DNA of 45,398 nt from Deltaproteobacteria bacterium (GTDB lineage: Bacteria; Desulfobacterota; Dissulfuribacteria; Dissulfuribacterales; UBA5754), in NCBI GenBank assembly GCA_036574075.1, contig JAINCN010000059.1, positions 1 to 45,398 of the forward strand, written 5' to 3'. Positions 30,162-45,155 of the stretch are shown here, piece after piece (positions within the stretch are counted from its first letter, which is position 1; the number at the start of each line of letters is the position of its first letter). The notes below the pieces were generated by a model. That model ran no database searches and had not been told where the DNA came from. It was given only the letters and a program-made list of their open reading frames with translations. A program made the position numbers and the translations under genes.

Positions 30162-30575
30162 TCAGAGGTCCAACCCCTCGGCCTTGCTCCGCAGGAATTC
30201 CCGGAACGCCTCATAAAGGGCGCGGAAGCTATCGACCGCCTTCCTGCCCCTTTCCGTGAGCCGGGCGCCTCCCCCCTTCCTGCCCCCTACCGAGGTCTCG
30301 ACCAGGGGGCTTTTCGCCTGACGGTTGATGGAGTCCACCAGCTCCCACGCATGTCGGTAGGACATATTCATGGAGCGGGCGGCCTGGGATATGGAGCCGA
30401 ATCTCTCGATACGCTCGAGGAGTTCCACCCTTCCGTATCCTAGGAAGGTGCCGTCGTCGCCTTCTATCCATATCCGGCCCCTGATGACGTAGCGCCCCCG
30501 TTTAACAGTGGAGTCGGCGGGCGCGGCGTCCCTGTCGGAAGGTATGAAGCGGTGGTGGGAGTCGGGTATTTTCAT
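30162..30575 (-). CDS. ModE-like transcription factor (DNA-binding domain only)
   Basis: The 137-aa product carries the N-terminal winged helix of ModE (GYGRVELLERIERFGSISQA, NMSYRHAWELVDSINRQ, PLVETSVGGRKGGGARLTERG), which binds DNA as a dimer. The C-terminal TOBE (MOP) domains that bind molybdate are absent, so another protein or another signal must supply metal sensing. The first 30 residues are extra and variable. A CGTTAT-N12-ATAACC palindrome sits 38 bases upstream of the start codon, suggesting self-control. It stands at the left border of the metal-uptake island. Confidence 0.88.
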   Translation of the reverse strand: MKIPDSHHRFIPSDRDAAPADSTVKRGRYVIRGRIWIEGDDGTFLGYGRVELLERIERFGSISQAARSMNMSYRHAWELVDSINRQAKSPLVETSVGGRKGGGARLTERGRKAVDSFRALYEAFREFLRSKAEGLDL

Positions 30576-30612
30576 GTGTCATTCCCTCGGCCGTGAAGTG
30601 GCTCTTGACTAT

Positions 30613-30636
30613 CGTTATTCCCAATTGTATATAACC
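30613..30636. promoter_or_regulatory. ModE-box-like palindrome upstream of the ModE-like gene
   Basis: CGTTAT, 12 bases, ATAACC. The halves GTTAT/ATAAC are exact inverted repeats with the same 12-base spacing as the known E. coli modA operator (CGTTAT-N12-ATAACG). It lies 38 bases before the regulator's start codon, a sensible place for autoregulation. That the site is bound is inference. Confidence 0.6.
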
Positions 30637-30736
30637 AATAACTGCTTTGATTTTAAACCTAAATTGAGCGATTCTCGAGGGCAGTGAGGTGGGCAATGGT
30701 ATTCTTGCCGGATTCTATGCCATGTGAGGACCTTAC

Positions 30737-30911
30737 CCTGAATCCGTGAGATATGCACTCAACCTTTCGATTTTACAGCATAAGCCTACGGCCGGGGTAT
30801 TTTTGGATGGAGGCGCCCATGGATGGGGCTCGAACGGCAAATCCGCCCCCATGGACGGGGGCAATTTGCCGCACGGAACAAATACCCCGAACGCCGGCTC
30901 ACGGATTCAGG
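30737..30911 (+). repeat. 175-bp palindromic element, copy 5
   Basis: Full-length copy with CCTGAATCC/GGATTCAGG ends, type-B left arm (shared with copy 4), and core GGGGCTCGAACGGCAAATCC as in copy 1. It ends 23 bases before the first DUF364 gene, so it lies in the promoter or leader of the island's first operon. Confidence 0.85.
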
Positions 30912-30934
30912 AGATAGATCAAAGGAGATTGAAT

Positions 30935-31654
30935 ATGGAGTACTACGAAAAACTGAGGGCCGAATTGAAAGATCTGGCCGACCGGATGATGGGTGAAATG
31001 GTGAATGTCATTTCGGCACGGCCGCTTTCTCCTGATGAGGCCATCGGCAAACCGGACCGTACTGATTATCCCCTTCTAAAGGGTAAGGAAGTGATGGTTG
31101 AAGCGGTTTTCAGTGGTGTGCGCGCACACGCATTTACTGATATGCCCGGTGATTTTTATGGCACTTTGCAGGAGGTCACGGACCTTGCGCTGAACACAAA
31201 TTTTGAACGAGCGGTGTTCATAGCGACTTTCAATGCTGTCATGCGCAATGCCGGCAAGACTGCCAACACTGTTCACTGTAGAAACAGTGAGCCAAGACAA
31301 TGCGCGAAACAGCTTCCGACTTTTATCGCAGATCATTTCGGAAAGCCAAAGATATCTTTTGTTGGATATCAGCCGGCAATGATTGAAGAATTGTCTAAAA
31401 CATTCCAACTGCGCGTCATAGACCTGGACGAAGACAACATCGGAACCAATCGTTTCGGTATCTTGATCGAGGGACCTGAAAGTACCGAGGAGGTATTGTC
31501 CTGGGGCGATATCATCCTGGCCACTGGGTCAACGTGCGTAAATGGCACGATTGTTTCGTTTCTCAATAAAAAACCCGTTGTTTTTTATGGAGTCACTGTC
31601 GCTGGCCCTGCCGCGTTGTATGGGTATCGACGCTTTTGTCCATGCTCGGGATAA
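30935..31654 (+). CDS. DUF364 family protein (putative metal-chelation), first copy
   Basis: Rossmann-like protein of the DUF364 family, whose members cluster with metal transporters and are proposed to bind metal or a metal-related ligand; no reaction is known. The 239-aa product has GVRAHAFTDMPGDFYGTL, ISFVGYQPAMIEELSKTF, LRVIDLDEDNIG and, near the end, GDIILATGSTCVNGTIVSFL, closing with two cysteines (RFCPCSG). AAAGGAG precedes ATG 30935. It is followed by the ABC importer genes after 24 bases and is probably co-transcribed. Only distant similarity to the second DUF364 at 36715. Confidence 0.8.
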   Translation: MEYYEKLRAELKDLADRMMGEMVNVISARPLSPDEAIGKPDRTDYPLLKGKEVMVEAVFSGVRAHAFTDMPGDFYGTLQEVTDLALNTNFERAVFIATFNAVMRNAGKTANTVHCRNSEPRQCAKQLPTFIADHFGKPKISFVGYQPAMIEELSKTFQLRVIDLDEDNIGTNRFGILIEGPESTEEVLSWGDIILATGSTCVNGTIVSFLNKKPVVFYGVTVAGPAALYGYRRFCPCSG

Positions 31655-31678
31655 AAATCAAATAAGGAGAATACCGCC

Positions 31679-32722
31679 ATGAAGCAATTTCAATTGAACC
31701 GGAGAGAATTCCTCATCAAATCCGCAACAGGTGCCGCCGCCTTGATCGCCGCGCCGTACTTGAGCCTTGATGTCTGGGCCGGCGATGAACAGCCATCGAT
31801 TAAGATGGCTGTTGAATTCAACTCCCACGCCGTGCCGGCTTACGTAGCCATCGAAAAAAAACTGTTCGAGGCGCAAGGGTTGAAAATTAATGCCTACGCC
31901 AGCTACGCGACCGGTGCTACGCTGGCAGCTGCCCTAACCAAGGGGGATATCGATGTCGCATATATCTGTCTCATTCCAGCGATTAACGCTTATGCCAACG
32001 CCGGTGTGCCCATCAAGGTGATTTGCGGTACGCATTTATATGGGTATGGGTTGGCTGTTAACCCGCAAAAGGTTCAGTCTATCAAAGACCTGGAAAATCC
32101 AGAGATTCGGGTAGGCTGCCTGGCGGCAGGAACGGCTGTTGACACGGTGATGCACATGACTATGGAGCATTACAAACTAGACAAACAAAAGATCCTGTCA
32201 AAGACCAGACGAATGAACCCAGCCAAAGCCATTTTCGCCGTCAAGACAAGGCAACTGGACGCCGTTTTTTTACCTGAACACTGGCTTACGCTAACTGAAA
32301 ACTACGGTTTTTCCGTGACGCACACCGCTCGGGATGTCTGGCCTGACATGATTGGAAGTGTGCTCATCGCCAAGAATGCACTTATCCAAAATAATCCGGT
32401 ATATGTTGGCAAGATCGTAAACGCCACTCGGAAGGCCACGGCGTATATGAATGAGCACCCTGAAGAGTGTGCGCAAATAGCCGCCCGTTATCTCTCTTTT
32501 GAAAGCCAGAAAGCCCCACTCGTCGAAGTTTTTGATAACAAAAATGACCTGATAGTCACAAATACATCCGTTGCCCGTTCAATGAAAAACCTCGACTATA
32601 TCAACTCCATCGATAGGAAAATGGTTCAGGAAATCATCGACAATGCCGCTCGCTTAGGCAATATCCGCCAATCCTTTTCTGCCGATGCAATGCTCGATCT
32701 CCAATTTATGAAACCGGCATGA
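31679..32722 (+). CDS. ABC transporter substrate-binding protein, NitT/TauT (NMT1-like) family, Tat signal
   Basis: Periplasmic binding protein. The 347-aa product has a twin-arginine signal (NRREFLIKSATGAAALIAAP, Arg8-Arg9), then a family pattern: AVPAYVAIEKKLFEAQGLK, GDIDVAYICLIPAINAYANA, VGCLAAGTAVDTVMHMTME. Family members bind nitrate, sulfonates, pyrimidines or other small compounds, so the ligand is open. Tat export suggests that folding or cofactor loading happens in the cytoplasm. AAGGAG before the ATG; the stop overlaps the permease start (ATGA). Confidence 0.88.
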   Translation: MKQFQLNRREFLIKSATGAAALIAAPYLSLDVWAGDEQPSIKMAVEFNSHAVPAYVAIEKKLFEAQGLKINAYASYATGATLAAALTKGDIDVAYICLIPAINAYANAGVPIKVICGTHLYGYGLAVNPQKVQSIKDLENPEIRVGCLAAGTAVDTVMHMTMEHYKLDKQKILSKTRRMNPAKAIFAVKTRQLDAVFLPEHWLTLTENYGFSVTHTARDVWPDMIGSVLIAKNALIQNNPVYVGKIVNATRKATAYMNEHPEECAQIAARYLSFESQKAPLVEVFDNKNDLIVTNTSVARSMKNLDYINSIDRKMVQEIIDNAARLGNIRQSFSADAMLDLQFMKPA

Positions 32723-33507
32723 AGAACGCACGTTTTTTCAACGCATGCTGGTGGTGGCATATCATGAAAGCCCTCCCGGTGATTGTGTTTTTCGCCGTAT
32801 GGGAACTTGCGGCAAGGTGCGGCCCATTTTCGGCCTCTGGTATTTTCCCTCCCTTCAGCACAGTCATTCTTGAAATGGTAACGTTGTTTAAATGCGGCGT
32901 GATGACGGAGAACCTCGTCAGCACCGTGGTAAGGGTTGTAATCGGTTTGCTCGCTGGGACAATCCTGGGCATGGGATTTGGTATCGCCATGGGTTGGCGA
33001 GAGGCGATCGGCCGATCCCTGTCGCCGGTCATCACCATTCTGTACCCCATCCCGGCCCTTGGCTGGTTGCCCCTGATGATGCTGTGGATAGGTATCAATG
33101 AAATGTTGCCCATCGCGATCATCACTATGGGCGCCTTTTTCCCGACCTGCTACAACACTGCTGCGGGCATTCGCAATGTGGACAAAGGATTGATTGACGC
33201 AGCTCATATATTAGGGGCATCCGAGAGGCGGATACTTTTTGAAGTGGTCTTGCCCAACGCTGCACCTCAGGTGTTTGCCGGTCTGAAGCTTTCTTCGGGG
33301 ATGGCCTGGCGCACGGTTCTTGCCGCAGAAATGGTTGCGATACCCACAGGCATAGGCGCGCTTATCATGAGAGCCGAAAGCCTGGTAAGGGTGGACATTA
33401 TCATGTCTTGCCTTGCCGTTCTGTCTTTGCTTTGTCTTCTTTTTGAAAAGGCCCTGGCTGCGGCGGAAAGGAAATGGGTCGAGAAATGGAAGATCGTCCA
33501 TGCCTGA
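32719..33507 (+). CDS. ABC transporter permease, NitT/TauT family
   Basis: Inner-membrane channel of the importer. The 262-aa product has about six hydrophobic helices and the EAA-type loop AAHILGASERRILFEVVLPN that contacts the ATPase. Opening helices and PALGWLPLMMLWIGINE are typical of SsuC/TauC-like permeases. Starts at ATG 32719 overlapping the binding-protein stop; ATG 32764 is an alternative. Overlaps the ATPase gene by 8 bases. Confidence 0.9.
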   Translation: MKNARFFNACWWWHIMKALPVIVFFAVWELAARCGPFSASGIFPPFSTVILEMVTLFKCGVMTENLVSTVVRVVIGLLAGTILGMGFGIAMGWREAIGRSLSPVITILYPIPALGWLPLMMLWIGINEMLPIAIITMGAFFPTCYNTAAGIRNVDKGLIDAAHILGASERRILFEVVLPNAAPQVFAGLKLSSGMAWRTVLAAEMVAIPTGIGALIMRAESLVRVDIIMSCLAVLSLLCLLFEKALAAAERKWVEKWKIVHA

Positions 33508-34546
33508 GATTGAACTTATCAATGTGAGCAGGCATATCTGTACTGACCTGAATCTCGCTATCAGGGATGGAGAATACTTTGTCATAGTCGGTGAGACTGG
33601 GGCCGGCAAAACAACGATATTGAACGTGATCGCCGGAGTTGTGGACTACAGCGGCGTTGTCATGATCGATAATGTCAACGTGAATCAACTCCCGCCGTTT
33701 AAACGGGGCGTCGGTTACTTGTTTCAGGAATTGGCCCTTTTCCCCCATCTTACCGTAGCAGCAAATATTGCATTCGGCCTGAAGGCCCAAGGGTATGAAA
33801 AGCACGCTGCCAAAGAGCGGGTCGAATTCTTGATGGATTTGATGCACATCAGACATATTGCGCACCGATATCCGCATGCACTTTCCGGCGGAGAGAAAAA
33901 AAGGGTCGCGCTGGCCCGCTCGCTGGCACCGGCACCAAAAATTCTTCTGCTTGATGAACCGACTTCCAGCCTCGACCATCGGACGGCGAAATATCTGCGT
34001 GCCGAGCTGCACGCCCTTATGAAAAAGTTGGGCATCACCACGATACATGTCACCCATGACCTCAGGGAGGCCGAGGAAATCGCAGACCGGATCGCCTTTA
34101 TCGCAAACGGTGCCATAGAACAAGTAGCGACACCTTCGGCCTTTTTTTTCGATCCGGCGAATGCATCCGTGGCCGAATTTATCGGAATGCCCAATATCCT
34201 TGAATGTCAACAAACCCGAACCCTGGCTTCCGGGCTGGTTGAAGTAATAGCAAACGATATGAAGATAATCCTGCCTTACGACGGTGGCCATATTCGCAAG
34301 ATTGCTATTCCGCCGGAAAGCGTTTTCATCTCAGATATACGTCCTCCCGGACCGGCATTAAACCGCTTTGTTGGAACGGTAGAAGAGATTACACGACATA
34401 ACTCTTCTGTCCGAGTAAGGGTGCTAATTGGCAAAAACAGACTCCTTTCGGAATTGCCCGCCAGCACATTTGAGAACATGTCTATAGAAAAAGGAATCAA
34501 GGTGCATGGCATAATTAAAATAGGCAGGCTACGTTGCATGGGGTAA
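33500..34546 (+). CDS. ABC transporter ATPase with C-terminal TOBE-like domain
   Basis: Energises the importer. The 348-aa product has Walker A GETGAGKTT (31-39), Q-loop LFQELALFPHLTV, signature LSGGEKKRVALARSL, Walker B KILLLDEPTSSLD and H-loop VTHDLREAEE. The last ~70 residues (IAIPPESVFISDIRPPG; NRFVGTVEEITRHNSSVRVR) look like the TOBE/MOP regulatory domain of ModC and related ATPases, which SsuB/TauB-type ATPases usually lack. A Mo/W oxyanion importer is therefore possible. Start ATG 33500 inside the permease end; the longer upstream frame is a shadow. Confidence 0.88.
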   Translation: MPEIELINVSRHICTDLNLAIRDGEYFVIVGETGAGKTTILNVIAGVVDYSGVVMIDNVNVNQLPPFKRGVGYLFQELALFPHLTVAANIAFGLKAQGYEKHAAKERVEFLMDLMHIRHIAHRYPHALSGGEKKRVALARSLAPAPKILLLDEPTSSLDHRTAKYLRAELHALMKKLGITTIHVTHDLREAEEIADRIAFIANGAIEQVATPSAFFFDPANASVAEFIGMPNILECQQTRTLASGLVEVIANDMKIILPYDGGHIRKIAIPPESVFISDIRPPGPALNRFVGTVEEITRHNSSVRVRVLIGKNRLLSELPASTFENMSIEKGIKVHGIIKIGRLRCMG

Positions 34547-34631
34547 TGGGAATATTTTTTTGATAGATCATTTGAGATTAAAACGAAATAGCATCAACAA
34601 GAAAATTATAAATCAAAGGAGGAATTTAACA

Positions 34632-35561
34632 ATGGTGTAAAAACTGAAGATTAATTGTGAGAGAAACCTTTATGCAACATTGAGCAAGTTGTGCAGACTG
34701 ACGTTTTATTTAGCCCTTGCCGCTTGCATACTGTTCAATTTGTAGGTCTGGGCTGTAGAACCAACCTACAGGCAAGGGGTAGATATTTTTATCGAAACCT
34801 GCGTGGACCCGCCTGATAGAACTCCTACATGGTATGCCTCCATGGTTAACAAGCCGTATGCCCCAGTATTCGAGATCCTTGCCACCCAGGGAACTCAAGG
34901 CCGGTATTATCCTTACACATATGCGATCACATTAAAGGACATCGTGAAGTTTCACGGCCACGATTGCGAGGTTCTGACCCATGCCGCAGCCTGCTGCAAG
35001 GTGGCTTTCGACATTCTTTTCCCGGACGGCATCATTGACAGAAGCGTCCTATGGGGTATTACGGGAAAATCGCCGTAATACACCGATGTGGTTGCGTATT
35101 TGACCGGCGCCCGCGTGCAGTATGGGAATCTCGGTTTTTTCAAAGATAAAAAGTATGGGCATGCGATTATCCTTTATCGTGAAGATACAGGCGTCGCTGT
35201 GCTGGCCACCTGGAAGGCAGGCATTAACAGCATTCCCGGCGAGCCGGTTGTTTTACCGGAAAAGATTTCATGGACGCCCTCTGTGAGTACGGAGGAGATG
35301 ATGAACTTGAAAAAAGTCGTAAAAAAAGCAAACGGCAAGCAAACACCTTACCAAGTCGATCTGATGCGCCATTACCAGTAGCGACTCAATAACGACATTT
35401 TGAGTCATCCATTGCAGGAAAGTTATCAGGCCAAGATTATCGAGAACTTTAAGTTGGAAGAATGGATAGATCAAGACAAGAAGATACCCGTTCCCCATGC
35501 CCGCTCAGACACACGATTAAAAAATGATTTTTACCGGAAAAGACTGGTTTCCATGGAGTGA
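34632..35561 (+). pseudogene. Secreted FmdE-family gene interrupted by four in-frame UAA/UAG codons
   Basis: AAAGGAGG precedes ATG 34632. One uninterrupted frame of 310 codons runs to TGA 35559-35561 but contains TAA at 34638, TAG at 34743, TAA at 35076 and TAG at 35379, with no frameshift and no internal TGA. Read through, it encodes a signal peptide (TFYLALAACILFN, then VWA), an FmdE domain with FHGHDCEVLTHAAACCKVAF, GKSP-stop-YTDVVAYLTGARVQ and YGHAIILYREDTG, and a charged tail. By my alignment, the third stop falls on the position of conserved Cys70 in the intact FmdE (EIDRCATDAIQ). The simplest view is a recently inactivated gene; stop-codon recoding is the exotic one. Confidence 0.75.
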
Positions 35562-35722
35562 AAATCTCTATGACAGAAGACAAACAACAAAATCTACAAA
35601 AATGTTCTGATGTGGTGAGATATAGTAAAATTTGGCCCCAATAGGCCCAATAGGGACATTGCAATCTGCACGCTCACGGATTCGACTATTGATGTCTATT
35701 AAAAAAAGGAGGATTTAAACAA

Positions 35723-36511
35723 ATGTCTAAAACTAACATGTCTTATCAGGAAATGCAGGATTTTTTGATGAATGAGCTAAGGCTTATGCACTATCCTATA
35801 GCGGTCAAGTTTATCTTCAAGGATGAAGAGATGGAGGATTTTCAGAAAAACGTCTACTATTATGAGCCGGTTCACAAACTGACCTTTTGCCAGTTTGAAA
35901 TTGGGGCAAGGATGGAAGGTTTGACTGTTTTTGCCACAAAAGACAAGCTTGGATGTCCAAATGCGGCTTATGTATTCGGCTGGAAGGGAATGGATGAGAA
36001 GGAGATAAAAAGTCACATGAAATATGCCAAGGATGAAGCACAGGCGGAAAGGTTTGTAAAGTCCAAACCTAGACTTCCTGAAGGCGCTTTAAAGGCAATC
36101 GTGGTTTCCCCTCTGGGACAGACATATTTCCCGCCCGATTCGGTACATTTTTACTGTGACAATATGCAGGCTTACCATTTAATGGTGAATTACATGGGTG
36201 CGATGGATGTTCATCCAATAAGACCGAATGTTACGATGAATTCTGCCGCCTGTGCAGGCAATGTGTTTGCCTATAATGAAAAAATGGCTACAACCCACCC
36301 TGCATGCAGTGGTAGTTACAATGCTGGCAAAACAGAACGCGGAGAGACGAATGTGATGATACCAGGCACTCATCTATCTGAATTTATGTCATGGATGGTG
36401 GAGCGTAAGAACAGATATGGAAGCTCATCCATAGTTAAACCGGGAGATCCTTTCCCTGGCGCTGATATATGTAAGAACTGTCCGCTTATTTGTTTCAAAG
36501 CCAAACAGTAA
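35723..36511 (+). CDS. DUF169 family protein
   Basis: Family of unknown function, common in anaerobes and often near metal or cofactor genes. The 262-aa product starts after AAAAGGAGG and has the pattern LRLMHYPIAVKFIFKDEEME, KLTFCQFEIGARMEG, LGCPNAAYVFGW and SAACAGNVFAY, and a C-terminal CKNCPLICF triplet of cysteines able to hold a metal or cluster. No signal peptide. A strong terminator follows, so it ends a transcript. The 35562-35722 leader contains only a 12-base match (35672-35683) to the palindromic repeat's right end. Confidence 0.85.
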   Translation: MSKTNMSYQEMQDFLMNELRLMHYPIAVKFIFKDEEMEDFQKNVYYYEPVHKLTFCQFEIGARMEGLTVFATKDKLGCPNAAYVFGWKGMDEKEIKSHMKYAKDEAQAERFVKSKPRLPEGALKAIVVSPLGQTYFPPDSVHFYCDNMQAYHLMVNYMGAMDVHPIRPNVTMNSAACAGNVFAYNEKMATTHPACSGSYNAGKTERGETNVMIPGTHLSEFMSWMVERKNRYGSSSIVKPGDPFPGADICKNCPLICFKAKQ

Positions 36512-36525
36512 TTTTTTTGCACTAT

Positions 36526-36549
36526 CGTTGTTCTTAACATAATATTACG
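36526..36549. promoter_or_regulatory. Weak ModE-box-like sequence
   Basis: CGTTGT-N12-ATTACG: correct spacing and outer bases, one mismatch per half to CGTTAT-N12-ATAACG. It touches the stem of the following terminator, so function is doubtful. It lies about 165 bases before the second DUF364 gene. Confidence 0.25.
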
Positions 36550-36590
36550 GTAATTTCCAGGATAACCTCTTGGAAATTACCTTTTCTTTT
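36549..36590 (+). terminator. Rho-independent terminator after the DUF169 gene
   Basis: A perfect 11-bp stem (GGTAATTTCCA / TGGAAATTACC) with an 11-base loop, followed by TTTTCTTTT. Lies 38 bases past the stop codon. Confidence 0.88.
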
Positions 36591-36632
36591 GTTGGGAACA
36601 AGGTAAAAATAGGCGGCAAACCTGAAGTTAGC

Positions 36633-36654
36633 GAGGAGTGGATTAAAAGATGAG
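36633..36654 (+). repeat. Leader motif GAGGAGTGGATTAA, first copy
   Basis: 22 bases, GAGGAGTGGATTAA plus AAGATGAG, repeated at 37558-37579 with 2 mismatches. Each copy looks like a ribosome site plus ATG of a tiny ORF, and each precedes an island gene. Confidence 0.6.
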
Positions 36655-36697
36655 TTTATTGTGCCAACAAAATGGATTAAGGATAAGTAAGCTTTAG
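36650..36697 (+). CDS. Possible leader peptide, 15 aa
   Basis: MSLLCQQNGLRISKL then TAG, with AGGAG 11 bases before the ATG, ending 17 bases before the second DUF364 start. May be a regulatory leader or the relic of a deleted gene; nothing shows that it is translated. Confidence 0.25.
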   Translation: MSLLCQQNGLRISKL

Positions 36698-36714
36698 GAA
36701 CTATGGAGGAAACC

Positions 36715-37545
36715 ATGATTCTGAAAGAAACATCTGAGTATCTCCATGAATTATATGGAAAAAGGTTAAAAGAGATAAGCATTGAAAAGGTTGTGGTTGG
36801 TATATTTTTTACAGGGGTAAAACTCTCCAACAGTTGTGGAGGCATCTCTTATACGCCTTTATCAGATATTAAAGATACGGTCTGTTGCCCCAGTATGGCA
36901 GCTAAAAAACCTGCACCGGGCAGCCTCAAAGGAGTATCTGTCCATGAGATAATGAATGCGGAGAAAGATACGCCTCTCTTTAATGCCATAAAGATTGCGG
37001 TGATGAACGCCCTTTCTTCTGAAGAATTTTTGGCAGACAGTGGTTACGAGATTATCTACGATAAGGATCTCCACGAAATAATAGACCTCAACTCTATAAA
37101 GCGGATAAGCATTGTGGGCGCATTCATTCCCTTCATAAAGAGACTGAAGAGCATGGAAGGGATTGAGCTTTATGTAGTGGAGAAAAAGAAATCATCCCTC
37201 AAGGATGACGAGTTAAGATACTATGTCCCTGCTGAAAGGGCATCTGAGGTGGTGCCCATTTCTGATACTGTTATTATTACAGGTTCATCCATCGCAAATG
37301 GAACCATTGATGAACTTTTAAGCTATTTCAAGACAGGATCGACAGTGGCTGTCGTCGGCCCTACAGCCAGCTTTTTGCCCGATGCCTTTTTTAAACGGAA
37401 TGTAGGGATTGTAAGCGGTGTTATCGTGACTGATAGCAACGCAATGCTTGATATTCTCTCAGATCGCGGCAGCGCTTATCATCTATTCAACACCTGTGCG
37501 AAAAAAATAAATATAGTCAATTCATCTGGATTATCTAAGTTTTAG
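36715..37545 (+). CDS. DUF364 family protein with DUF4213-like N-terminal domain, second copy
   Basis: The 276-aa product starts at ATG 36715, chosen because GGAGG lies 8 bases before it; ATG 36703 overlaps that ribosome site. N-terminal part: VVVGIFFTGVKLSNSCGGISYTP with Cys residues and DTVCCPSMAAKK, as in DUF4213. C-terminal Rossmann half: RISIVGAFIPFIKRLKS, VVPISDTVIITGSSIANGTI and VAVVGPTASFLPDAFF, as in DUF364. Members of this pair are described as putative heavy-metal chelators. The gene sits between the terminator of the DUF169 gene and the TonB receptor, and its codons are AT-rich compared with the backbone. Confidence 0.83.
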   Translation: MILKETSEYLHELYGKRLKEISIEKVVVGIFFTGVKLSNSCGGISYTPLSDIKDTVCCPSMAAKKPAPGSLKGVSVHEIMNAEKDTPLFNAIKIAVMNALSSEEFLADSGYEIIYDKDLHEIIDLNSIKRISIVGAFIPFIKRLKSMEGIELYVVEKKKSSLKDDELRYYVPAERASEVVPISDTVIITGSSIANGTIDELLSYFKTGSTVAVVGPTASFLPDAFFKRNVGIVSGVIVTDSNAMLDILSDRGSAYHLFNTCAKKINIVNSSGLSKF

Positions 37546-37557
37546 AAATCATAACGA

Positions 37558-37579
37558 GAGGAGTGGATTAAGAAATGAG
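37558..37579 (+). repeat. Leader motif GAGGAGTGGATTAA, second copy
   Basis: 20 of 22 bases identical to 36633-36654; see that entry. It lies 129 bases before the TonB-receptor start. Confidence 0.6.
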
Positions 37580-37646
37580 GACTACAGAAGAGAGCATTTT
37601 TAAAAATTGTTATATTTACATATATACAACGAAGGCTGTTCAATAA
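37575..37646 (+). CDS. Possible leader peptide, 23 aa
   Basis: MRTTEESIFKNCYIYIYTTK..., rich in Tyr/Ile/Thr, with AGGAG 11 bases upstream. The ModE-box-like palindrome lies within it. Translation is unproven; if the palindrome is an operator, the ORF may be accidental. Confidence 0.25.
   Translation: MRTTEESIFKNCYIYIYTTKAVQ
37608..37631. promoter_or_regulatory. ModE-box-like palindrome upstream of the TonB receptor
   Basis: TGTTAT-N12-ACAACG, differing from the CGTTAT-N12-ATAACG arrangement by one base in each six-base half. The centre ATTTACATATAT is AT-rich, as in known sites. It lies 76 bases before the receptor ATG, in the only gap where a receptor promoter could lie. Confidence 0.5.
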
Positions 37647-37707
37647 ATAAGGGGTAAAATTGTCATTCCCTGAAAAAAATACTTAAAAACAACATAGGAG
37701 GTTAAAA

Positions 37708-39693
37708 ATGAGAAGATTTCTAATGTTTGTTTTTGTCTTTTATGTCTCTCTGCAAATGGCGCATCTTGCATGGGCCGAAAATATCTTCACCCTCGGCGAG
37801 ATAGAGGTGACCGCACCAAAAGAAGAAACAAAAAACATCACCATAGACAATGTCTATGATGATGAGATGAGAGAGTTTAACAGGGATACGGTTTCGGAGG
37901 CCGTCAATCTCTTGCCAGGCGTAAGTCTTTCGCGGGTAGGAGCAAGAAACGAGTCTACGGTATATGCCAGGGGGTTTGACATAAAGCATGTACCGCTATT
38001 TCTCGACGGCATACCCATTTATGTTCCCTATGATGGATACCCGGACCTGGGAAGGTTTTACACCTTCGACTTATCGGAGATCGTGGTTTCAAAGGGATTC
38101 ACATCCGTGCTTTACGGGCCGAATACCATGGGTGGTGCAATAAACATTGTTACCAAAAAACCAGAAAAACAATTTGAAGGCAGCGCAGGCATTGGATATG
38201 CATCCGGGAATACCTATCGCAGCTACTTGAACATGGGAACAAACCAGAAAAAATGGTACCTTCAAGCAAGCGGATCATATGTTGACAGTGACTATTTCAG
38301 GCTCTCAAGCGATTTCAAGCCTGTCACAGCAGAAGATGGAGGTAAAAGGAACAATTCATATCATAAGGATGAAAAGCTTAATTTCAGGTTTGGTTATACA
38401 CCAAACAAAGATGATGAATATTCTATAACCTATATTAACCAGCATGGCAAAAAGGGAACTCCTCCTTACGCAGGGAGTGATCCAACATGGACAGTCCGCT
38501 ATTGGAGATGGCCATACTGGGACAAGGAAAGCTATTATTTCACCTCAAGGACATCCCTCGGCAGCAAGAGTTACTTCAAGACCAGGCTCTATTATGACGA
38601 ATTCAAAAATTCACTTTACAGCTATGACGACGCTACATATAGCACAATGACAAAAAAATCTTCCTTTAAAAGTTATTATGACGATTACACAATTGGAGGC
38701 TCCACGGAGATAGGGACATCCATTCTGCCGAAAAACACACTCAAGCTCGCCCTTCACTTTAAGAGGGACATCCACCGAGAGCATAACGAAGGCAACCCCA
38801 TCCAGCATTTCGAAGACGAGATCTTTTCTGCAGGACTGGAAGACACCATTGATATTACAAAGGATCTCTATGCCATCCTGGGCATAAGCTATGATAGGCT
38901 GAGCACACAGAGGGCCGAGGATTACAACTCAAAAACAAAACAGTTGTCGGATTTCCCGAAGGATGACAGCTCTGCCTTCAATCCCCAGATCGGGCTCTTC
39001 TATTCCCTATCAGACACAGGTAAGCTTCATGCATCCGTGTCAAAGAAGACGAGGTTTGCATCCATAAAGGACAAGTACTCTTACAGGTTAGGTTGGGTAA
39101 TCCCCAATCCCGAACTCAATCCGGAAGAGTCTATAAACTACGAAATTGGCTATCAGGACCTCTTTTTCAAAAAGATGTGGCTGAAGACAGCGGTCTTTTA
39201 CAGCGATATTTCTGACTTTATCATGTTTGTAACAGTGCCGGATCCAAACAATCCCGGAAAAACAGTAAATCAGAACCAGAACATCGGCAAGGTGAGGCAC
39301 TACGGTCTTGAGACGGATGTATCGGCAGAGGTGATGAAGGGACTCGAGAGCGGACTCAATTATACCTATATCTACAGAGACAACAGGACAAATGAGGATA
39401 AGCTTATCAATGTCCCGAAACACAAGTTTTTTGCCTATCTGAAATATAAACCCCTGAAAAAATTAACGCTCCATGGAAACCTCGAATACAACTCAAAGCG
39501 CTACAGTTCATCCGCCGGCAATCGCGTGGCAGGCGCATTCACACTGGTCAATACAAAGATAGCCTATGAAATCATCAAAGAACTTAACATAGAGATGGGC
39601 GTAAATAATGTGTTTGATAAAAACTATGCCCTTGACGAGGGTTATCCGGAGCCCGGGAGGAATTACTTTGCAAATCTCACATATAGGTGGTGA
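37708..39693 (+). CDS. TonB-dependent outer-membrane receptor
   Basis: Energised outer-membrane transporter for a scarce large or chelated ligand. The 661-aa product has a signal peptide ending LAWA, a likely TonB box around GEIEVTAPKE, the plug domain (SEAVNLLPGVSLSRVGARNE, STVYARGFDIKHVPLFLDGI, VVSKGFTSVLYGPNTMGGAI, NIVTKKP) and a 22-strand-type barrel ending GVNNVFDKNYALDEG...FANLTYRW with the terminal aromatic residue. AGGAGG lies 8 bases before the ATG. The size is typical of siderophore/cobalamin receptors; the ligand is unknown, with Mo/W suggested by context. Confidence 0.93.
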   Translation: MRRFLMFVFVFYVSLQMAHLAWAENIFTLGEIEVTAPKEETKNITIDNVYDDEMREFNRDTVSEAVNLLPGVSLSRVGARNESTVYARGFDIKHVPLFLDGIPIYVPYDGYPDLGRFYTFDLSEIVVSKGFTSVLYGPNTMGGAINIVTKKPEKQFEGSAGIGYASGNTYRSYLNMGTNQKKWYLQASGSYVDSDYFRLSSDFKPVTAEDGGKRNNSYHKDEKLNFRFGYTPNKDDEYSITYINQHGKKGTPPYAGSDPTWTVRYWRWPYWDKESYYFTSRTSLGSKSYFKTRLYYDEFKNSLYSYDDATYSTMTKKSSFKSYYDDYTIGGSTEIGTSILPKNTLKLALHFKRDIHREHNEGNPIQHFEDEIFSAGLEDTIDITKDLYAILGISYDRLSTQRAEDYNSKTKQLSDFPKDDSSAFNPQIGLFYSLSDTGKLHASVSKKTRFASIKDKYSYRLGWVIPNPELNPEESINYEIGYQDLFFKKMWLKTAVFYSDISDFIMFVTVPDPNNPGKTVNQNQNIGKVRHYGLETDVSAEVMKGLESGLNYTYIYRDNRTNEDKLINVPKHKFFAYLKYKPLKKLTLHGNLEYNSKRYSSSAGNRVAGAFTLVNTKIAYEIIKELNIEMGVNNVFDKNYALDEGYPEPGRNYFANLTYRW

Positions 39694-39744
39694 CCTAATT
39701 CTTAAGGAAACGGTTGCGCTCATTCGCGAGCTTTATGGAGAAAA

Positions 39745-40560
39745 ATGAAGACCCCACGGGAGTTGACTAAAGAATTTTACTTTTCGATTCTCCTGCATTT
39801 TCTTATAGTGGTCGGGGCTTTTGTGTTTGCAAGGAATTCAATGATGACAATAAACAGTCCTCTCGTAATCGATTTCACCATTGCAAGCAGTTAAGGCCAT
39901 TACTACCAGAGGCACGGCACAGATTTTGTCAGCCAGCAGCATAGAGCAAATAATAAAGGTAAAACAGGGGATGTAAAACCACAGAAGACGGAAACTATGC
40001 AGGTGAACAGGGATTTTGAGGATAAAACATCACCACATGCAGTTGTGGATAAAACTTCTGATATGCAACCTTCATTATCTGCAGCGCCGTCAGAGATAGC
40101 AGAAATACAATCAGCAGATACACCAGCATCAGGATTTAAAGACGAAAAAGGAAGCGATGAAAAAGGAGGAAATAGCAGCCGGCATGTATCTCATGGCAGG
40201 ACCGATGGTTCTGCGGGTGGAAAAAACAGCACCGGCATCCCCTCCAATAAGACTTATGCAGGGCAGGATGATGTCAAAAGGGCAGGATATATCAGAGAGC
40301 ACTTTGCATATATAAGGGATATAATCCACAAAAATCTCGTTTATCCGGCGATTGCGCGCAAATTAAAATGGCAAGGCTCTGTAACGGTCTCTTTCGTGAT
40401 ATGCGATGACGGAAGGATTAAGAACATCAGGGTGCTGAAAAGCTCAGGGTATGATGTCCTTGACAGCAATGTGGTGGAGACCATCAGTGGTGTTCAGCCA
40501 CTTCCAAAACCGCCTGTCAGTGCTGAATTGATAATACCGGTGGTGTACAGACTTCACTAA
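39745..40560 (+). pseudogene. TonB-family energy transducer split by an in-frame UAA
   Basis: From ATG 39745 (GGAGA 6 bases upstream) a 271-codon frame runs to the stop at 40558, broken only by TAA 39892-39894. The first part is a short basic head and one membrane helix (FYFSILLHFLIVVGAFVFAR), the anchor of TonB. After the stop come a polar, Lys/Ser-rich linker and the TonB C-terminal domain (YPAIARKLKWQGSVTVSFVI, DGRIKNIRVLKSSGYDVLDS). Re-initiation at ATG 39997 would give a linker plus domain without anchor. So the gene is either inactivated by one nonsense change or read through. Confidence 0.75.
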
Positions 40561-40633
40561 TTTACTAAAACCGGGATCCAGCGATAAGGATGGGGCTTCT
40601 CACCACACCTGCTTTGATTTTGAACTTGATATT

Positions 40634-40758
40634 CCCTGTAACTTGCTACAGGGTTACCTTATGGTTCCCTCCCCCTTGACGGGGGAGGGTTATGGTGGGG
40701 GTGTTTTGAAAAGTCAAGGGAGGGGAGATTTTAGGATACCCCGCAGCTTGCTGCGGGG
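40634..40758. repeat. Cluster of three GC hairpins (REP-like)
   Basis: Three perfect stems in the tonB-methyltransferase gap (40561-40814): CCCTGTA/TACAGGG at 40634-40653, CCCTCCCCC/GGGGGAGGG at 40667-40689, and CCCCGCAG/CTGCGGGG at 40739-40758. The first and third share the loop core CTTG. They are dispersed-repeat-like and may also end the upstream transcript, but no T run follows. No other gene is seen here. Confidence 0.7.
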
Positions 40759-40814
40759 AGGTTCATTGTTTCTTTATCGCTGGATTTGGGTATAAAACAT
40801 AAGCAGGGTCGGTG

Positions 40815-41627
40815 ATGGACATAAGAAAGATAGACTGGAACGAGGCGTGGAAAAAGGCGCACGCAGAAGGGAGCAGAAAATGGAAGGACCCCGGCTTCTG
40901 GAACAGGCGCGCGCCCTCCTTTGCAAAGCATGCTGCAGAGAGCCCGTATGCCTCGGACTTCATCGGCATTATGCAGCCAGAGCAGCACTGGAGCGTGCTT
41001 GATGTGGGATGCGGTGCAGGCACGCTCGCAAGGCCTCTTTCAAAGATGGTTAAACAGATTACTGCAATAGATTCATCTGATGTGATGATAACGCTTCTGC
41101 AAGAGCAGTGTGCCAAAGAAGGGCTGTTGAATGTGACGGCTCTGAATATAGGATGGGAAGAAGACTGGGAAAAGGCTGGGGTCGGAATCCATGATGTGAC
41201 TATTGCTTCACGTTCTCTTATAGTCGAAGACCTGAAAGAGGCATTGAACAAACTCAACAGGTTTGCGCGCAAGAGGGTTTACATCTCCGCGCTTGTTGGA
41301 GATGGACCTTTCGATCGCAGAATCTTCGAGGCGATCGGGTTGGAGATTGATCGTAGACCTGATTACATATACATCTATAACCTGTTGTACCAGATGGGCA
41401 TTTATGCTGATGTCACCTTTGTGACCAACCAGGGACACGGCAAGGTATACAGCGACCTGGAGGCTGCGGTGCAAGACCTCCGCTGGATGATTGATGAGTT
41501 GAACAGCGAAAAAGAGGTCCTGCTGCGCGAATATCTCCGTCGCAATCTGATAAAAAAAGAGGGTGGTTGGGGGCTTCCCCATCAGCATGTCGTCCGCTGG
41601 GCAATTATTTCGTGGAGCATATCATGA
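40815..41627 (+). CDS. Class I SAM-dependent methyltransferase in the metal-uptake operon
   Basis: The 270-aa cytoplasmic enzyme has the SAM motif VLDVGCGAGTLARPLS (61-76), ITAIDSSDVM, and an N-terminal segment KDPGFWNRRAPSFAKHA similar in plan to the methyltransferase at 25726 (TPEFWREYASS...EIWDRAARDYDD). ATG 40815 is chosen with AGGG upstream; GTG 40812 is possible. Its stop overlaps the BtuF-like start (ATGA), so it is made together with the importer. It may modify a metal-binding ligand or a cofactor made from the imported metal; this is inference. Confidence 0.85.
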   Translation: MDIRKIDWNEAWKKAHAEGSRKWKDPGFWNRRAPSFAKHAAESPYASDFIGIMQPEQHWSVLDVGCGAGTLARPLSKMVKQITAIDSSDVMITLLQEQCAKEGLLNVTALNIGWEEDWEKAGVGIHDVTIASRSLIVEDLKEALNKLNRFARKRVYISALVGDGPFDRRIFEAIGLEIDRRPDYIYIYNLLYQMGIYADVTFVTNQGHGKVYSDLEAAVQDLRWMIDELNSEKEVLLREYLRRNLIKKEGGWGLPHQHVVRWAIISWSIS

Positions 41628-42715
41628 ACAACGGAACACGACTTTCGGAAAGGATCGCCGGTTATTATGGCCGGGGCAAGGCCGGATACGCCTTGCAGGT
41701 TTTCTTTCTTTTGCTGCTCTGGCTGTTTGCTGCCTCACTTTCTGTTTACGGCAGAGAGGTAACCGACATGAGCGGCAGAAAGGTGACACTGCCGGATGTC
41801 ATCCACAAGGTGGTGGGGATCTCCCCTCCTGCCACCTACTTGCTTTATGCGCTGGACCCGACGCTTATCGGCGGGTTGAATTTTCCACCCCGGGAAAGCG
41901 AAAAAAAATACATGGCGCCGGGGTACACCAAACTACCGGTTATAGGCGGTCTCTTCGGCCAGGGAAGAACCATCAACCAGGAGGCGCTGCTGAGGATCAA
42001 GCCTGATTTCGTCCTCTACTGGCAATGGAAGGATGCAGCGATTGAACAGAAGCTCAGGGCCACCATGGCCCAACTCGGTTTGCCGCTGGTTGCCGTACGG
42101 CTTGACAGCATTGAGGATTACCCTGCTGCCCTGCTTTTTTTGGGCGATGTGCTTAACCGAAAAGAGCGGGCGCACAAGTTGTACCGCTATGCCATGGACA
42201 CTGTGCAGGAGGCAAAGGCCATAAAGTCGCGTCTCAAGAATACCCGAAAAGTCAGGGTCTATTACGCAGAGGGCCTGGACGGCTTGAGCACAGAACCAGA
42301 GGGATCTATCCATGCCGAACTCATCCCCCTTGCAGGAGGGGAGAATGTGCACAAAGGCGAGCAGTTCAGCCATTACGGAATGGAAAAGATATCCATGGAG
42401 CAGGTCCTTTTGTATAATCCCGAGGTCATTCTGGTTAAGGAAAGGGCCTTTTATAACCGTATCTTCACCGACCCCCGCTGGCAAAACATCCGGGCCGTGC
42501 GCGATCGCCGTGTGTACCTTATTCCCTATGTGCCTTTCAACTGGTTTGACCGCCCCCCTTCTTTCATGAGACTTCTTGGAATCAAATGGCTTCTCAACAT
42601 TCTTCATCCAGAACATTATTCAATTAATATGGTGGCTGAAACCCGGGCATTCTATAAACTCTTTCTTCGTGTGGATATAAGTGAAAAAGAAGCGCGGGAG
42701 ATACTGAATCAATGA
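41624..42715 (+). CDS. ABC transporter substrate-binding protein, BtuF/FecB family
   Basis: Periplasmic helical-backbone binding protein for metal chelates or oxyanions. The 363-aa product has an N-terminal hydrophobic segment (ALQVFFLLLLWLFAASLSVY), then REVTDMSGRKVTLPDVIHKV, NQEALLRIKPDFVLYWQ, ISMEQVLLYNPEVILVKERA, as in PF01497 proteins. The segment RKVTLPDVIHKVVGISPPA resembles the molybdate/tungstate branch as well as cobalamin and haem ones, so the ligand is open. Coupled by ATGA at both ends. Confidence 0.9.
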   Translation: MNNGTRLSERIAGYYGRGKAGYALQVFFLLLLWLFAASLSVYGREVTDMSGRKVTLPDVIHKVVGISPPATYLLYALDPTLIGGLNFPPRESEKKYMAPGYTKLPVIGGLFGQGRTINQEALLRIKPDFVLYWQWKDAAIEQKLRATMAQLGLPLVAVRLDSIEDYPAALLFLGDVLNRKERAHKLYRYAMDTVQEAKAIKSRLKNTRKVRVYYAEGLDGLSTEPEGSIHAELIPLAGGENVHKGEQFSHYGMEKISMEQVLLYNPEVILVKERAFYNRIFTDPRWQNIRAVRDRRVYLIPYVPFNWFDRPPSFMRLLGIKWLLNILHPEHYSINMVAETRAFYKLFLRVDISEKEAREILNQ

Positions 42716-43725
42716 GCCGACTGACCCTGCCGCTTATGATACTTGTTGTCGTGTTGACAGCGCTCTTTTCACTCTCTCTGGGCCAGTACAGGATTCCAGT
42801 TAGGGAATTGCTTGACTTCGTTGCATGGAAAACACTGGGTTTGAATGGGATAAGCGAAGAAAAAAAGGTCCTGCTTGAAAATATCTTGTTCAATATCAGA
42901 CTTCCACGGGTCCTTGCAGCAATCCTGATAGGCGCATCACTTTCCGTCTCTGGCGCGGCCTTTCAGGCATTGTTCGTCAACCCCCTGGTTTCGCCCGGCC
43001 TGCTCGGGGTGCTGGCCGGCGCTTCTTTCGGCGCCGCTTTCGGTATGATCTTCAGCAATAGCTGGCTCATTGTCCAACTCTCCACCCTGATCTTTGGATT
43101 TATAGCAGTGGGCGCCACTTTAGGCATAGCCAGGGTGTACAGGAGCAACGCCATCATCATGCTTGTGCTGGGAGGGATCATCAGCGGCGCCTTTTTCACC
43201 TCTCTGCTCTCCATCCTCAAATATACGGCAGATCCCTATAACCAGCTCCCTGCAATCGTCTACTGGCTCATGGGCAGCCTGGCATCTGTTGACCGCGGCA
43301 CTGTCCTGATCATCAGTCTACCCGCGATAATCGGTATCCTGATTATCATCCTTCACGCCAGACAGATCAACATCCTGAGCATGGGCGAGGAAGAGGCGCA
43401 GTCTCTGGGAGTGAATGTTCAGCAGGTTCGTTTGACGGTGATCTTCGCCGCTACTATGATCAGCGCCCTTACCGTGGTGGTAGGCGGCATGATTGGCTGG
43501 GTCGGTCTCATCATCCCGCATATCTGCCGCATGGTGATCGGTCCGAACAACGAGGCCCTCCTGCCGGTCGCTGCTCTCACTGGCGCGGTGTATCTATTGT
43601 TGATTGATGATATATCCCGGCTTCTCTTTATCTTTGAAATACCCATAGGCATCGTCACTTCGATTACCGGTATTCCCTTTTTTGTGCTGGTGCTGAGAAA
43701 TGCAAGACGAGGGGGGTGGCGATGA
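42712..43725 (+). CDS. ABC transporter permease, BtuC/FecCD family
   Basis: Inner-membrane channel, 337 aa with about ten helices. Family motifs: NIRLPRVLAAILIGASLSVS, GAAFQALFVNPLVSPGLLGV, and the late segment GWVGLIIPHICRMVIGPNNE that contacts the ATPase. ATGA overlaps with the genes on either side. Confidence 0.94.
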   Translation: MSRLTLPLMILVVVLTALFSLSLGQYRIPVRELLDFVAWKTLGLNGISEEKKVLLENILFNIRLPRVLAAILIGASLSVSGAAFQALFVNPLVSPGLLGVLAGASFGAAFGMIFSNSWLIVQLSTLIFGFIAVGATLGIARVYRSNAIIMLVLGGIISGAFFTSLLSILKYTADPYNQLPAIVYWLMGSLASVDRGTVLIISLPAIIGILIIILHARQINILSMGEEEAQSLGVNVQQVRLTVIFAATMISALTVVVGGMIGWVGLIIPHICRMVIGPNNEALLPVAALTGAVYLLLIDDISRLLFIFEIPIGIVTSITGIPFFVLVLRNARRGGWR

Positions 43726-44546
43726 CCGGGCTGATCAGCGTTAAAAATGTGGATTTTGCCTATAGGAAAAGGGAGGTGCTGAAAGGGATCAACCTCTCCT
43801 TTAATCATGGTGAGGTGGTCTCGTTACACGGCCCGAACGGAAGCGGCAAGACAACACTACTGAAAATAATCCTCGGATTTCTCAAACCCAAAAAGGGGGA
43901 AGTTTTTTTTGAAGGACAAAATATTAAAAAGATCCCTCGTAATATGCTTGCCCGCCGGATTGCCTATGTGCCGCAGACCCACAGGGAGGCCTTCGCCTAC
44001 ACAGTGGAGGATGTGGTCCTGATGGGGAGAATGCCATATCATTCCTTCTTCTCCAGTTATTCCCAAAAGGATCACGCTGCGGTGGCAGCAGCCCTTGAAC
44101 GGCTCGGCATCCTGCACCTGATGAAGAGGCCGTACACCGAAATCAGCGGCGGTGAGCGACAGTTGACCCTGATTGCCCGCTCTCTGGCACAGGGAGCCGA
44201 TGTCTTTATTATGGACGAACCTGTGAACGGTCTGGATTACGGCAACCAGATGCGCCTTCTTGCCGGTATCAAAAGTTTGGCAAGGGAGGGGCTTACCATC
44301 ATCATGACCACCCATTTCCCAGACCATGCCTTAATGACAGCCGACAGGGTCATCCTTTTCAAAGACGGCGCCGTGCTGGCTGATGGGCCGCCGGACACCA
44401 CCATCAATCGTGAGACTATCTTTACGCTCTACTCTATTCAGGTGGATATCATACCTGTAAACGGCAGCGGCAAGGTCTGTATGCCGGTCTGCAACCAGTG
44501 GAGACAGGGAGGTTGTCATGTCCCGAGAGATCATAGACCGTTATAG
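43722..44546 (+). CDS. ABC transporter ATPase, BtuD/FecE family
   Basis: Powers the importer. The 274-aa product has Walker A GPNGSGKTT (37-45), Q-loop YVPQTHREAF, signature ISGGERQLTLIARSLAQG, Walker B VFIMDEPVNGLD and H-loop TTHFPDHAL. ATG 43722 overlaps the permease stop. The last residues (from about GGCHVPRDH) are read from DNA whose other strand encodes the end of an IS481-like transposase. The native C-terminus was therefore probably replaced by insertion; the core domain is complete. Confidence 0.92.
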   Translation: MTGLISVKNVDFAYRKREVLKGINLSFNHGEVVSLHGPNGSGKTTLLKIILGFLKPKKGEVFFEGQNIKKIPRNMLARRIAYVPQTHREAFAYTVEDVVLMGRMPYHSFFSSYSQKDHAAVAAALERLGILHLMKRPYTEISGGERQLTLIARSLAQGADVFIMDEPVNGLDYGNQMRLLAGIKSLAREGLTIIMTTHFPDHALMTADRVILFKDGAVLADGPPDTTINRETIFTLYSIQVDIIPVNGSGKVCMPVCNQWRQGGCHVPRDHRPL

Positions 44547-44705
44547 TGAAGAGTTCTGGTTCCATTTCCTGCCATTTTTTGAGTGCCTGTACCGGGGTGA
44601 TATGACCGAGTGCCTTTTGAGGGATCTGGTGGTTATATAGGCGGACATAGCGATAAAGGGCGGCCTTGAGCCCTTTTGAGGATGGAAATCGTGTATGTGT
44701 CACCA
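44512..44705 (-). mobile_element. IS481-like transposase remnant (C-terminal part)
   Basis: On the minus strand, YRYVRLYNHQIPQKALGHIT, PVQALKKWQEMEPELF and TVYDLSGHDN match the C-terminal end of IS481-type (integrase-core) transposases. The DDE core is missing: the frame starts abruptly at about 44705, next to the IS3-like end, and runs into the ATPase gene's 3' end. A remnant, not mobile. Confidence 0.72.
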
Positions 44706-44713
44706 CTAAGGTA

Positions 44714-45155
44714 TGTTGAGAAAAATGGACACCAAAAATCGAGCCCCGATAGAATGGGGTGAAATGGAGGTGTCGCATGGAGAAAATTCCCAACGGGCAG
44801 TATACGAAGGAGTTTCGGGAAGAGGCCGCCCGAATGGTCATTGAGCGGGGCCTGAAGGCAGGGAAGGCTGTGCACGGCGTCTTGATCTTCCGAAGTCGAC
44901 TTTCGAGAATTGGGTCAGGGCGGCTCGAGCGGGAATGCTTGGTGCAATCGGCAAGTCCAGCCGTCCGCTCACAGAGCTTGAGATGGAGCTTGCCTGGGTA
45001 AAGTGGGAGCTGGCCATTACCCGCATGGAGCGTGACATCCTAAAAAAAGCGGCATCGTACTTTGCAAAGGAGTCACTACAAGGTACGTGATGATGAAGAG
45101 AAGGTGGCCCAACGGGAGATCACGGAATATATCGAGATTTTTTACAACAGACAAA
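44714..45155 (+). mobile_element. IS3-family element, internally deleted
   Basis: It begins with TGTTGAGAAAAATGGACACC, typical of an IS3-group terminal repeat. It holds a frameshifted orfA and only the last few dozen codons of orfB (VAQREITEYIEIFYNRQ), so most of orfB including the DDE catalytic region is gone. The right terminal repeat is not seen: after FYNRQ the sequence switches at about 45156 to the 20-bp segment also found at 108-127. It cannot move by itself. Confidence 0.8.
44777..45090 (+). pseudogene. IS3-family orfA, frameshifted
   Basis: Starts EKIPNGQYTKEFREEAARMV, IERGLKAGKAV, the helix-turn-helix of IS3 OrfA. A one-base loss near 44880 shifts the frame; the other frame continues LDLPKSTFENWVRAARAGML, GAIGKSSRPLTELEMELAW, ERDILKKAASYFAKES to TGA 45088-45090. 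GGAGG precedes the ATG. Confidence 0.85.

Follow-up and report, generated by a model that had tools for sequence, protein, structure and literature searches.

The 45,398-base window analysed here is the entire contig JAINCN010000059.1 of a Deltaproteobacteria bacterium (assembly GCA_036574075.1), whose genome comprises 1.99 Mb and is 99.9% complete. Its 3' part carries a gene island, noted at positions 30162-44546, that an earlier note had put forward as a ModE-controlled, TonB-driven uptake system for molybdenum, tungsten or a metal chelate. The right half of this island, all on the forward strand, encodes a TonB-dependent receptor (37708-39693), for which plug (PF07715) and barrel (PF00593) domains were both matched by profile, a TonB-family protein (39745-40560; PF03544, 63.5 bits), an S-adenosylmethionine (SAM)-dependent methyltransferase that is conserved in related islands (40812-41627; Methyltransf_25), and a complete importer. 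The importer comprises a BtuF-like periplasmic binding protein (41624-42715, listed open reading frame (ORF) start 41567; PF01497), a FecCD/BtuC-type permease (42712-43725; PF01032, 267 bits) and a BtuD/FecE-type ATPase (43716-44546; PF00005, 117 bits). The proposed coupling of the methyltransferase to this Peripla_BP_2-FecCD-ATPase gene set is seen in an ATGA stop/start overlap. Nearly all of the genes listed in the earlier note were borne out by profile matches, although two of them, tonB and an FmdE-like frame, are damaged.

The regulatory gene, modE (30162-30575, reverse strand), encodes a protein of 137 residues that matches TIGR00637 at 84.9 bits, under the cut-off of 98.5, together with PRK10676 (60.9 bits) and PF00126. 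The ModE-type DNA-binding protein is thus present, as the helix-turn-helix (HTH) half only; Pfam gave no TOBE match, that is, the two C-terminal molbindin/TOBE domains are absent. HTH-only ModE proteins are known from delta-proteobacteria (PMC545781), and full-length forms with TOBE domains occur in four of the related islands described below. Operators were sought with the E. coli-type consensus from the literature, ATCGnTATATA-N6-TATATAnCGAT, printed in identical form in PMC545781, each site being scored as matches out of 20. The two top-scoring sites among all positions of the contig both fall in intergenic gaps of the island. The first, ATTGTTATATT-TACATA-TATACAACGAA (37606-37633; 16/20), lies in the 162-bp gap 5' of the receptor gene and ends 74 bp ahead of its start codon; the second, ATCGTTATTCC-CAATTG-TATATAACCAA (30611-30638; 15/20), lies between modE and the divergently oriented gene for a DUF364 protein, DUF364a. 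Shuffled versions of the contig gave a mean of 0.05 sites at 15/20 or better, and none of 60 shuffles gave two; when the intergenic gaps themselves were shuffled, the observed score was never reached for 37606 and was reached in 0.05% of shuffles (P ~0.0005) for 30611. A pattern adjusted to both sites finds these two, with 30611 as best match, and a single weak site besides in the 1.99 Mb; it was tuned after both sites had been seen and is supporting evidence only.

Is this gene set a chance juxtaposition? A named genome collection was scanned with the BtuF-like family, giving 80 loci, mostly from Desulfobulbales, Desulfobacterales, Syntrophobacterales, Geobacterales and Campylobacterota, with a minority from Alphaproteobacteria, Acidobacteriota and Riflebacteria. 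The control set was drawn from other FecCD loci in the same genomes: of 40 chosen, one (L217) held a family member and was dropped, leaving 39. The receptor, FmdE, the methyltransferase, BtuFCD, ExbBD-TonB and DUF364 recur in the family loci, and because the same set recurs in other genomes we regard it as more than an accident of position. With profiles for FmdE, methyltransferase, receptor and HTH regulator that were built or iterated on the family loci, and with a few genomes supplying two loci each, the methyltransferase was found in 44 of the 80 family loci and no control, FmdE in 36 (one control) and DUF364b, the island's second DUF364 protein, in 23 (one control). The co-occurrence that the earlier note had proposed as a check is thus found for receptor, DUF364, FmdE and methyltransferase, while DUF169 stands outside the conserved set. 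A modE gene and a regulator with a PBP-domain and HTH (PF12727) each occur in 12 of the 80 family loci, and ModA and ModB in eight each, against none of the 39 controls in every case; ModE boxes of at least 16/20 number 22, in 16 family loci (1.33 Mb), against none in the controls (0.71 Mb) at similar G+C content. Boxes of at least 15/20 mostly precede receptor, binding-protein and methyltransferase genes, although 14 of the 56 are near no labelled gene. Taken together, at least one molybdenum/tungsten marker (ModE, ModA/B, a molybdate-type regulator, a strong ModE box or a Moco RNA, the last sought in 42 family loci and 13 controls) is present in 41/80 family loci and 0/39 controls.

The domain names of the receptor and importer are those of the BtuB/BtuFCD and FecBCD systems, and the island could accordingly be an ordinary cobalamin, haem or ferric-siderophore operon that lies near modE by accident. 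The NCBIfam scores, however, are far under their cut-offs for BtuF (54.7 against 234 bits), BtuC (182.6 against 461) and BtuD (123.3 against 281), as they are for siderophore receptors, and a predicted ModE operator stands immediately 5' of the receptor gene. Riboswitches were sought with Rfam in 42 family loci and 13 of the 39 controls: cobalamin riboswitches occur in none of the former and in nine of the latter. Assignment to cobalamin, haem or siderophore uptake was rejected on the NCBIfam scores and this riboswitch contrast, and we consider an ordinary operon of this kind highly improbable. The earlier note had named control of homologous clusters by Fur, cobalamin or nickel elements as evidence that would speak against it; the 42 loci, in a scan that left Fur and NikR sites aside, contain no cobalamin or other metal riboswitch apart from Moco and Moco-II RNAs. 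The window itself gave no Rfam match, cobalamin riboswitch included, and the Moco RNAs are therefore a feature of the relatives only. Moco RNAs (RF01055) stand immediately 5' of BtuF, BtuC, methyltransferase or DUF364b genes in L131, L158, L160 and L163, and 5' of genes whose assignment is less clear in L135, L140, L158 and L163, while Moco-II RNAs precede methyltransferase genes in L152, L160 and L166; the removed control, L217, likewise carried such an RNA, 5' of its family BtuF. Moco RNAs are known 5' of molybdate transporters and of genes for the molybdenum and tungsten cofactors (PMC2408646). All eleven Moco matches are 118-122 nucleotides long against a 135-position model, and two displayed alignments lack stem P3; Regulski et al. 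proposed that P3-less Moco RNAs sense the tungsten cofactor (PMC2408646). Tungsten therefore appears as likely a cargo as molybdenum, in Geobacteraceae at least.

With predicted ModE operators at modE/DUF364a and at the receptor, markers concentrated in the family loci and cobalamin riboswitches absent from those scanned, the uptake of molybdenum and/or tungsten proposed in the earlier note is supported, and at the level of the family we think it probable that these genes form a widespread, so far unnamed TonB-dependent uptake system under molybdenum/tungsten control. Several observations weigh against this conclusion. Molybdenum- or tungsten-dependent control indicates the signal to which genes answer, not the cargo that they carry; the ModE of the window lacks the molybdate-binding domains; 39 of the 80 related loci, some of them short contigs, have none of the tested markers; the nearest structural neighbours of the binding protein also include iron/siderophore binding proteins; and in the window the tonB gene is interrupted, the FmdE frame of the island is degraded and no ExbBD pair was found within the island.

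The binding protein deserves closer attention in this respect. Alignments place it in a family of its own, marked by a W.DRPP motif that is invariant across the relatives. Its predicted model (predicted local distance difference test score, pLDDT, 92) is closest in fold to PDB entry 4pag, from Sulfurospirillum, followed by 4ovk, 4hn9 and the molybdate-binding protein MolA; iron/siderophore proteins rank intermediate, and vitamin B12 and haem proteins far lower. Ranked by sequence, the closest PDB entries are 4pag, 4ovk and MolA. The importer could be controlled by ModE or Moco RNAs and yet carry something else that is needed when molybdenum is scarce; alternative enzymes, for instance, might call for vanadium, iron or a different metal complex. 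ModE can control genes other than those of molybdenum transporters, for example those of alternative nitrogenases, and the operators and the iron proteins among the fold neighbours would both be compatible with another cargo. On the other side, Moco and Moco-II RNAs precede the importer genes themselves, ModABC genes often lie nearby, MolA is structurally close, and no further molybdenum/tungsten binding protein was detected in the genome. We therefore judge another cargo unlikely. Two further observations concern the wider family. At 17 of the 80 loci, family members adjoin proteins that combine a radical-SAM N-terminus with a Peripla_BP_2-like C-terminus (a weak match, under cut-off), an unusual pairing exemplified at 12623-14485 of L109 and with homologues in seven further loci (L107, L131, L139, L152, L166, L190 and L196). 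A locus of Geobacter GAC1 (L229) packs three FecCD importers, FmdE, DUF364b, radical SAM and TonB-ExbBD genes into 20 kb; it lacks the W.DRPP motif and was read as a divergent paralogous cluster.

What might the accessory proteins do? The earlier note had listed a secreted FmdE-like reading frame in the island (34632-35569, forward). Four in-frame stops interrupt this frame ahead of its apparent end, and it matches PF02663 at only 25.8 bits when read through with X; a working secreted protein was rejected on account of the stops, and the frame is probably a pseudogene. An intact FmdE-family protein with a C4 zinc finger, of the type found in related islands, is encoded further 5', at 26814-27435 (forward; listed ORF start 26704), and scores 111.7 bits against PF02663 (cut-off 22.9) and 256 bits against the profile built from related islands. 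Immediately 3' of it follows a MoeA/MogA-like protein with a molybdopterin-binding domain (27436-28469, forward; PF00994 MoCF_biosynth, 87 bits), and before it lies a second SAM methyltransferase (25726-26592, reverse), a weak relative of that of the island (Methyltransf_25, 56.9 bits; island-methyltransferase profile, 94 bits). These three genes, 2-5 kb upstream of modE, were missed in the extent first drawn for the island, to which they are probably tied in function.

Both DUF364 proteins are confirmed by profile, DUF364a (30936-31654, forward; PF04016) at 33.4 bits and DUF364b (36703-37545, forward), which also matches DUF4213, at 129 bits. Orthologues of DUF364a in four relatives adjoin ModABC or sit in a nif cluster, with ModE boxes close by in three; at the end of a nitrogenase cluster in L053 (G006:C1:1965000-1984900), the orthologue stands between two ModA genes and ModBC. 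Tungstate, vanadium and molybdate genes had already been remarked as neighbours in the DUF364 structure paper, which suggests flavin, pterin or siderophore chemistry (PMC2954201). The predicted DUF169 protein is present (35723-36511, forward; PF02596, 170.7 bits), although it was discarded as a core component when its profile gave no clear homologue in related loci, and a fold search with the island methyltransferase returned only generic small-molecule methyltransferases at low TM-scores. The company of FmdE, the molybdopterin-binding-domain gene and DUF364 would also suit uptake of a compound resembling pterin or molybdopterin, or of the metal-free ligand, in place of a metal, as would the proposal that Moco RNAs sense the cofactor rather than the metal (PMC2408646). 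The linkage to ModE and ModABC nevertheless favours a metal, and importers of the BtuCD type that work with TonB receptors mostly carry metal complexes; we find import of such a compound distinctly unlikely. A dispersed intergenic repeat was seen in passing, with near-identical frames before DUF364a (~30738-30912) and twice more elsewhere in the genome (L250, 11199-11360; L252, ~4910).

The left half of the island encodes a second importer, all on the forward strand, with an NMT1/SsuA-type binding protein (31679-32722; PF13379, 75.8 bits), its permease (32719-33507; PF00528, 92.3 bits) and an ATPase (33500-34546, listed ORF start 33413; PF00005). The TOBE-like tail ascribed to this ATPase holds up, narrowly, at 23.1 bits for PF03459 (cut-off 22.3). 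Its best NCBIfam match is WtpC (NF040840), at 288.9 bits against a cut-off of 440, with ModC at 176.3 against 285; the binding protein is of the NMT1/SsuA type, not ModA/WtpA (PF13531) or TupA (PF12849). This NMT1/SsuA-type importer and DUF364a recur together in a genome of the same order (L094, G022:C18), with modE not nearby. In the host genome as a whole no ModA/WtpA or TupA was detected: PF13531, weakly, and PF12849 each match one and the same protein, which we read as PstS. The two importers of the island are therefore the only candidates detected for molybdenum or tungsten import. As to demand, a single molybdopterin oxidoreductase came out of the profile search of the genome, and no tungsten enzyme of the AOR type. 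The oxidoreductase gene, which carries an in-frame TGA, lies at ~7360 of L250 (C64:18000-34000) beside genes for acetyl-CoA synthase subunits, and we read its product as a selenocysteine formate dehydrogenase.

For the outer-membrane half, an IEVTA motif near the mature N-terminus of the receptor resembles a TonB box, and receptors 53-60% identical to it are found in many related islands. Comparison with the PDB gave partial matches of a generic kind only (pyoverdine, Cir and BtuB receptors), which carry no information on cargo, and searches of relatives of the same order with the receptor gave only distant receptors in other gene contexts. The C-terminal domain of the TonB-family protein is matched as expected, although its frame is interrupted by TAA at codon 50 (39892-39894), in the weakly conserved linker that joins the membrane anchor to the C-terminal domain. 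An alternative genetic code was set aside as an explanation for this stop and for those in the FmdE frame, because these codons also terminate other island genes.

The surroundings suggest how the island came to be here. Its G+C content is 42-51%, compared with 58% in the first 30 kb of the contig; no relative of the BtuF-like protein was found among the genomes of the same order listed; and in a tree this protein groups with Desulfobulbales relatives, with 67% identity to a Desulfocapsa protein. For these reasons we read the copy in the host genome as horizontally acquired. Direct repeats of at least 30 bp were looked for at the island edges and none was found. Insertion-sequence remnants (44449-45001) close the contig ~850 bp 3' of btuD, and the island is visible only up to there; they consist of an integrase-core fragment on the reverse strand (PF13683/PF13333, below the curated cut-offs) and a short transposase-like ORF on the forward strand, read by eye and with no Pfam match. 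The host copy may be decaying, and it could be a dying remnant that no longer supports TonB-dependent uptake, a state of affairs compatible with the reading that we favour for the family. The stops in FmdE and tonB, the insertion-sequence remnants at the edge, the lack of a BtuF relative among the genomes of the order that were listed and the missing ExbBD pair, with ExbB-family proteins elsewhere in the genome mainly of the Tol/Mot type and one ambiguous, all point this way. Yet the receptor, methyltransferase, BtuF, BtuC and BtuD frames are unbroken, with both operators in place, and the genome offers no other detected molybdenum/tungsten binding protein; the tonB stop is a single codon that could be an assembly error, and another TonB-family protein could serve. 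A dying remnant is a serious possibility, if not the one that we would choose.

The general assumption is that porins let molybdate and tungstate through the outer membrane. In the uptake system that we propose for the family, the TonB-dependent receptor would instead take a molybdenum or tungsten species, most likely an organic chelate, through the outer membrane, the W.DRPP protein would capture it in the periplasm, and the BtuCD-type ABC importer would move it across the inner membrane. ModE would switch the genes according to molybdenum/tungsten status, a task that may fall in relatives to Moco or Moco-II RNAs or to the PBP-domain HTH regulators. FmdE, DUF364 and the methyltransferase may act on the ligand, in its synthesis or in release of the metal, and the left half, DUF364a with the NMT1/SsuA-type importer, would be a second ModE-linked importer. 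What we observe is the gene content, the predicted operators, the recurrence of the set, its contrast with the controls and the lack of another detected molybdenum/tungsten binding protein in the genome; we infer the identity of the cargo and of its chelate, the roles of the enzymes and the direction of regulation. A more specific version is a dedicated tungsten/molybdenum metallophore system, in which anaerobes make or scavenge a particular organic ligand whose metal complex is imported by the TonB receptor and the W.DRPP BtuFCD under ModE and cofactor-RNA control, with the radical-SAM protein of relatives joining FmdE, DUF364 and the methyltransferase in acting on it; this we put forward tentatively, with more doubt than conviction. 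If the proposed uptake system is real, many anaerobes, among them sulfate reducers, Geobacter relatives and Campylobacterota, actively scavenge molybdenum or tungsten, perhaps in chelated form, in sulfidic habitats poor in both metals. Three little-understood families, FmdE, DUF364 and the island methyltransferase, would also gain a role open to test, and 4pag, a solved but functionally unannotated member of the binding-protein family, a candidate cargo.

Finally, how does this island compare with known systems? The earlier note knew of no description of the gene set as one system, and in the literature searched, which excluded most subscription journals, no such paper was found, nor any named TonB system for molybdenum or tungsten beyond what is touched on in PMC3543383, PMC545781, PMC2954201 and PMC2408646. 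The nearest remark concerns Pelobacter carbinolicus, where genes for ligand-gated, TonB-type channels were noted close to molybdopterin-binding proteins or to cobalamin/molybdopterin riboswitches, with metals as a possible cargo; that passage stops short of proposing a system, a gene set, a link to ModE or an assignment to molybdenum or tungsten (PMC3543383). The closest importer is MolABC of Haemophilus influenzae (HI1470-1472), a BtuCD-fold molybdate/tungstate importer that shares the BtuCD-type permease and ATPase and a Peripla_BP_2 binding protein, MolA being third-best among PDB sequence matches and among the best folds for the BtuF-like protein. MolA is, however, only ~24% identical and lacks W.DRPP in the alignment, and MolABC is not known to work with a TonB receptor or to be accompanied by a methyltransferase, FmdE or DUF364. 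The BtuB-TonB-BtuFCD pathway for cobalamin has the same overall plan of receptor, TonB, periplasmic binding protein and BtuCD-type importer, but the island family is under molybdenum/tungsten-type control, without cobalamin riboswitches in the loci scanned and with scores far below the equivalog cut-offs. With ModE-ModABC, WtpABC and TupABC the island shares the ModE regulator and its operators, and the TOBE-tailed ATPase of its left half resembles WtpC; in contrast to them it has no detected ModA, WtpA or TupA, adds a predicted TonB-dependent outer-membrane step and has two importers of other classes. The catecholate molybdophores of Azotobacter provide a precedent for chelate-mediated scavenging of molybdenum, and FrpB4/CeuE of Helicobacter, a TonB and FecBCD-type nickel uptake system, one for a metal other than iron, although the gene families and regulation of both differ from those of the island.

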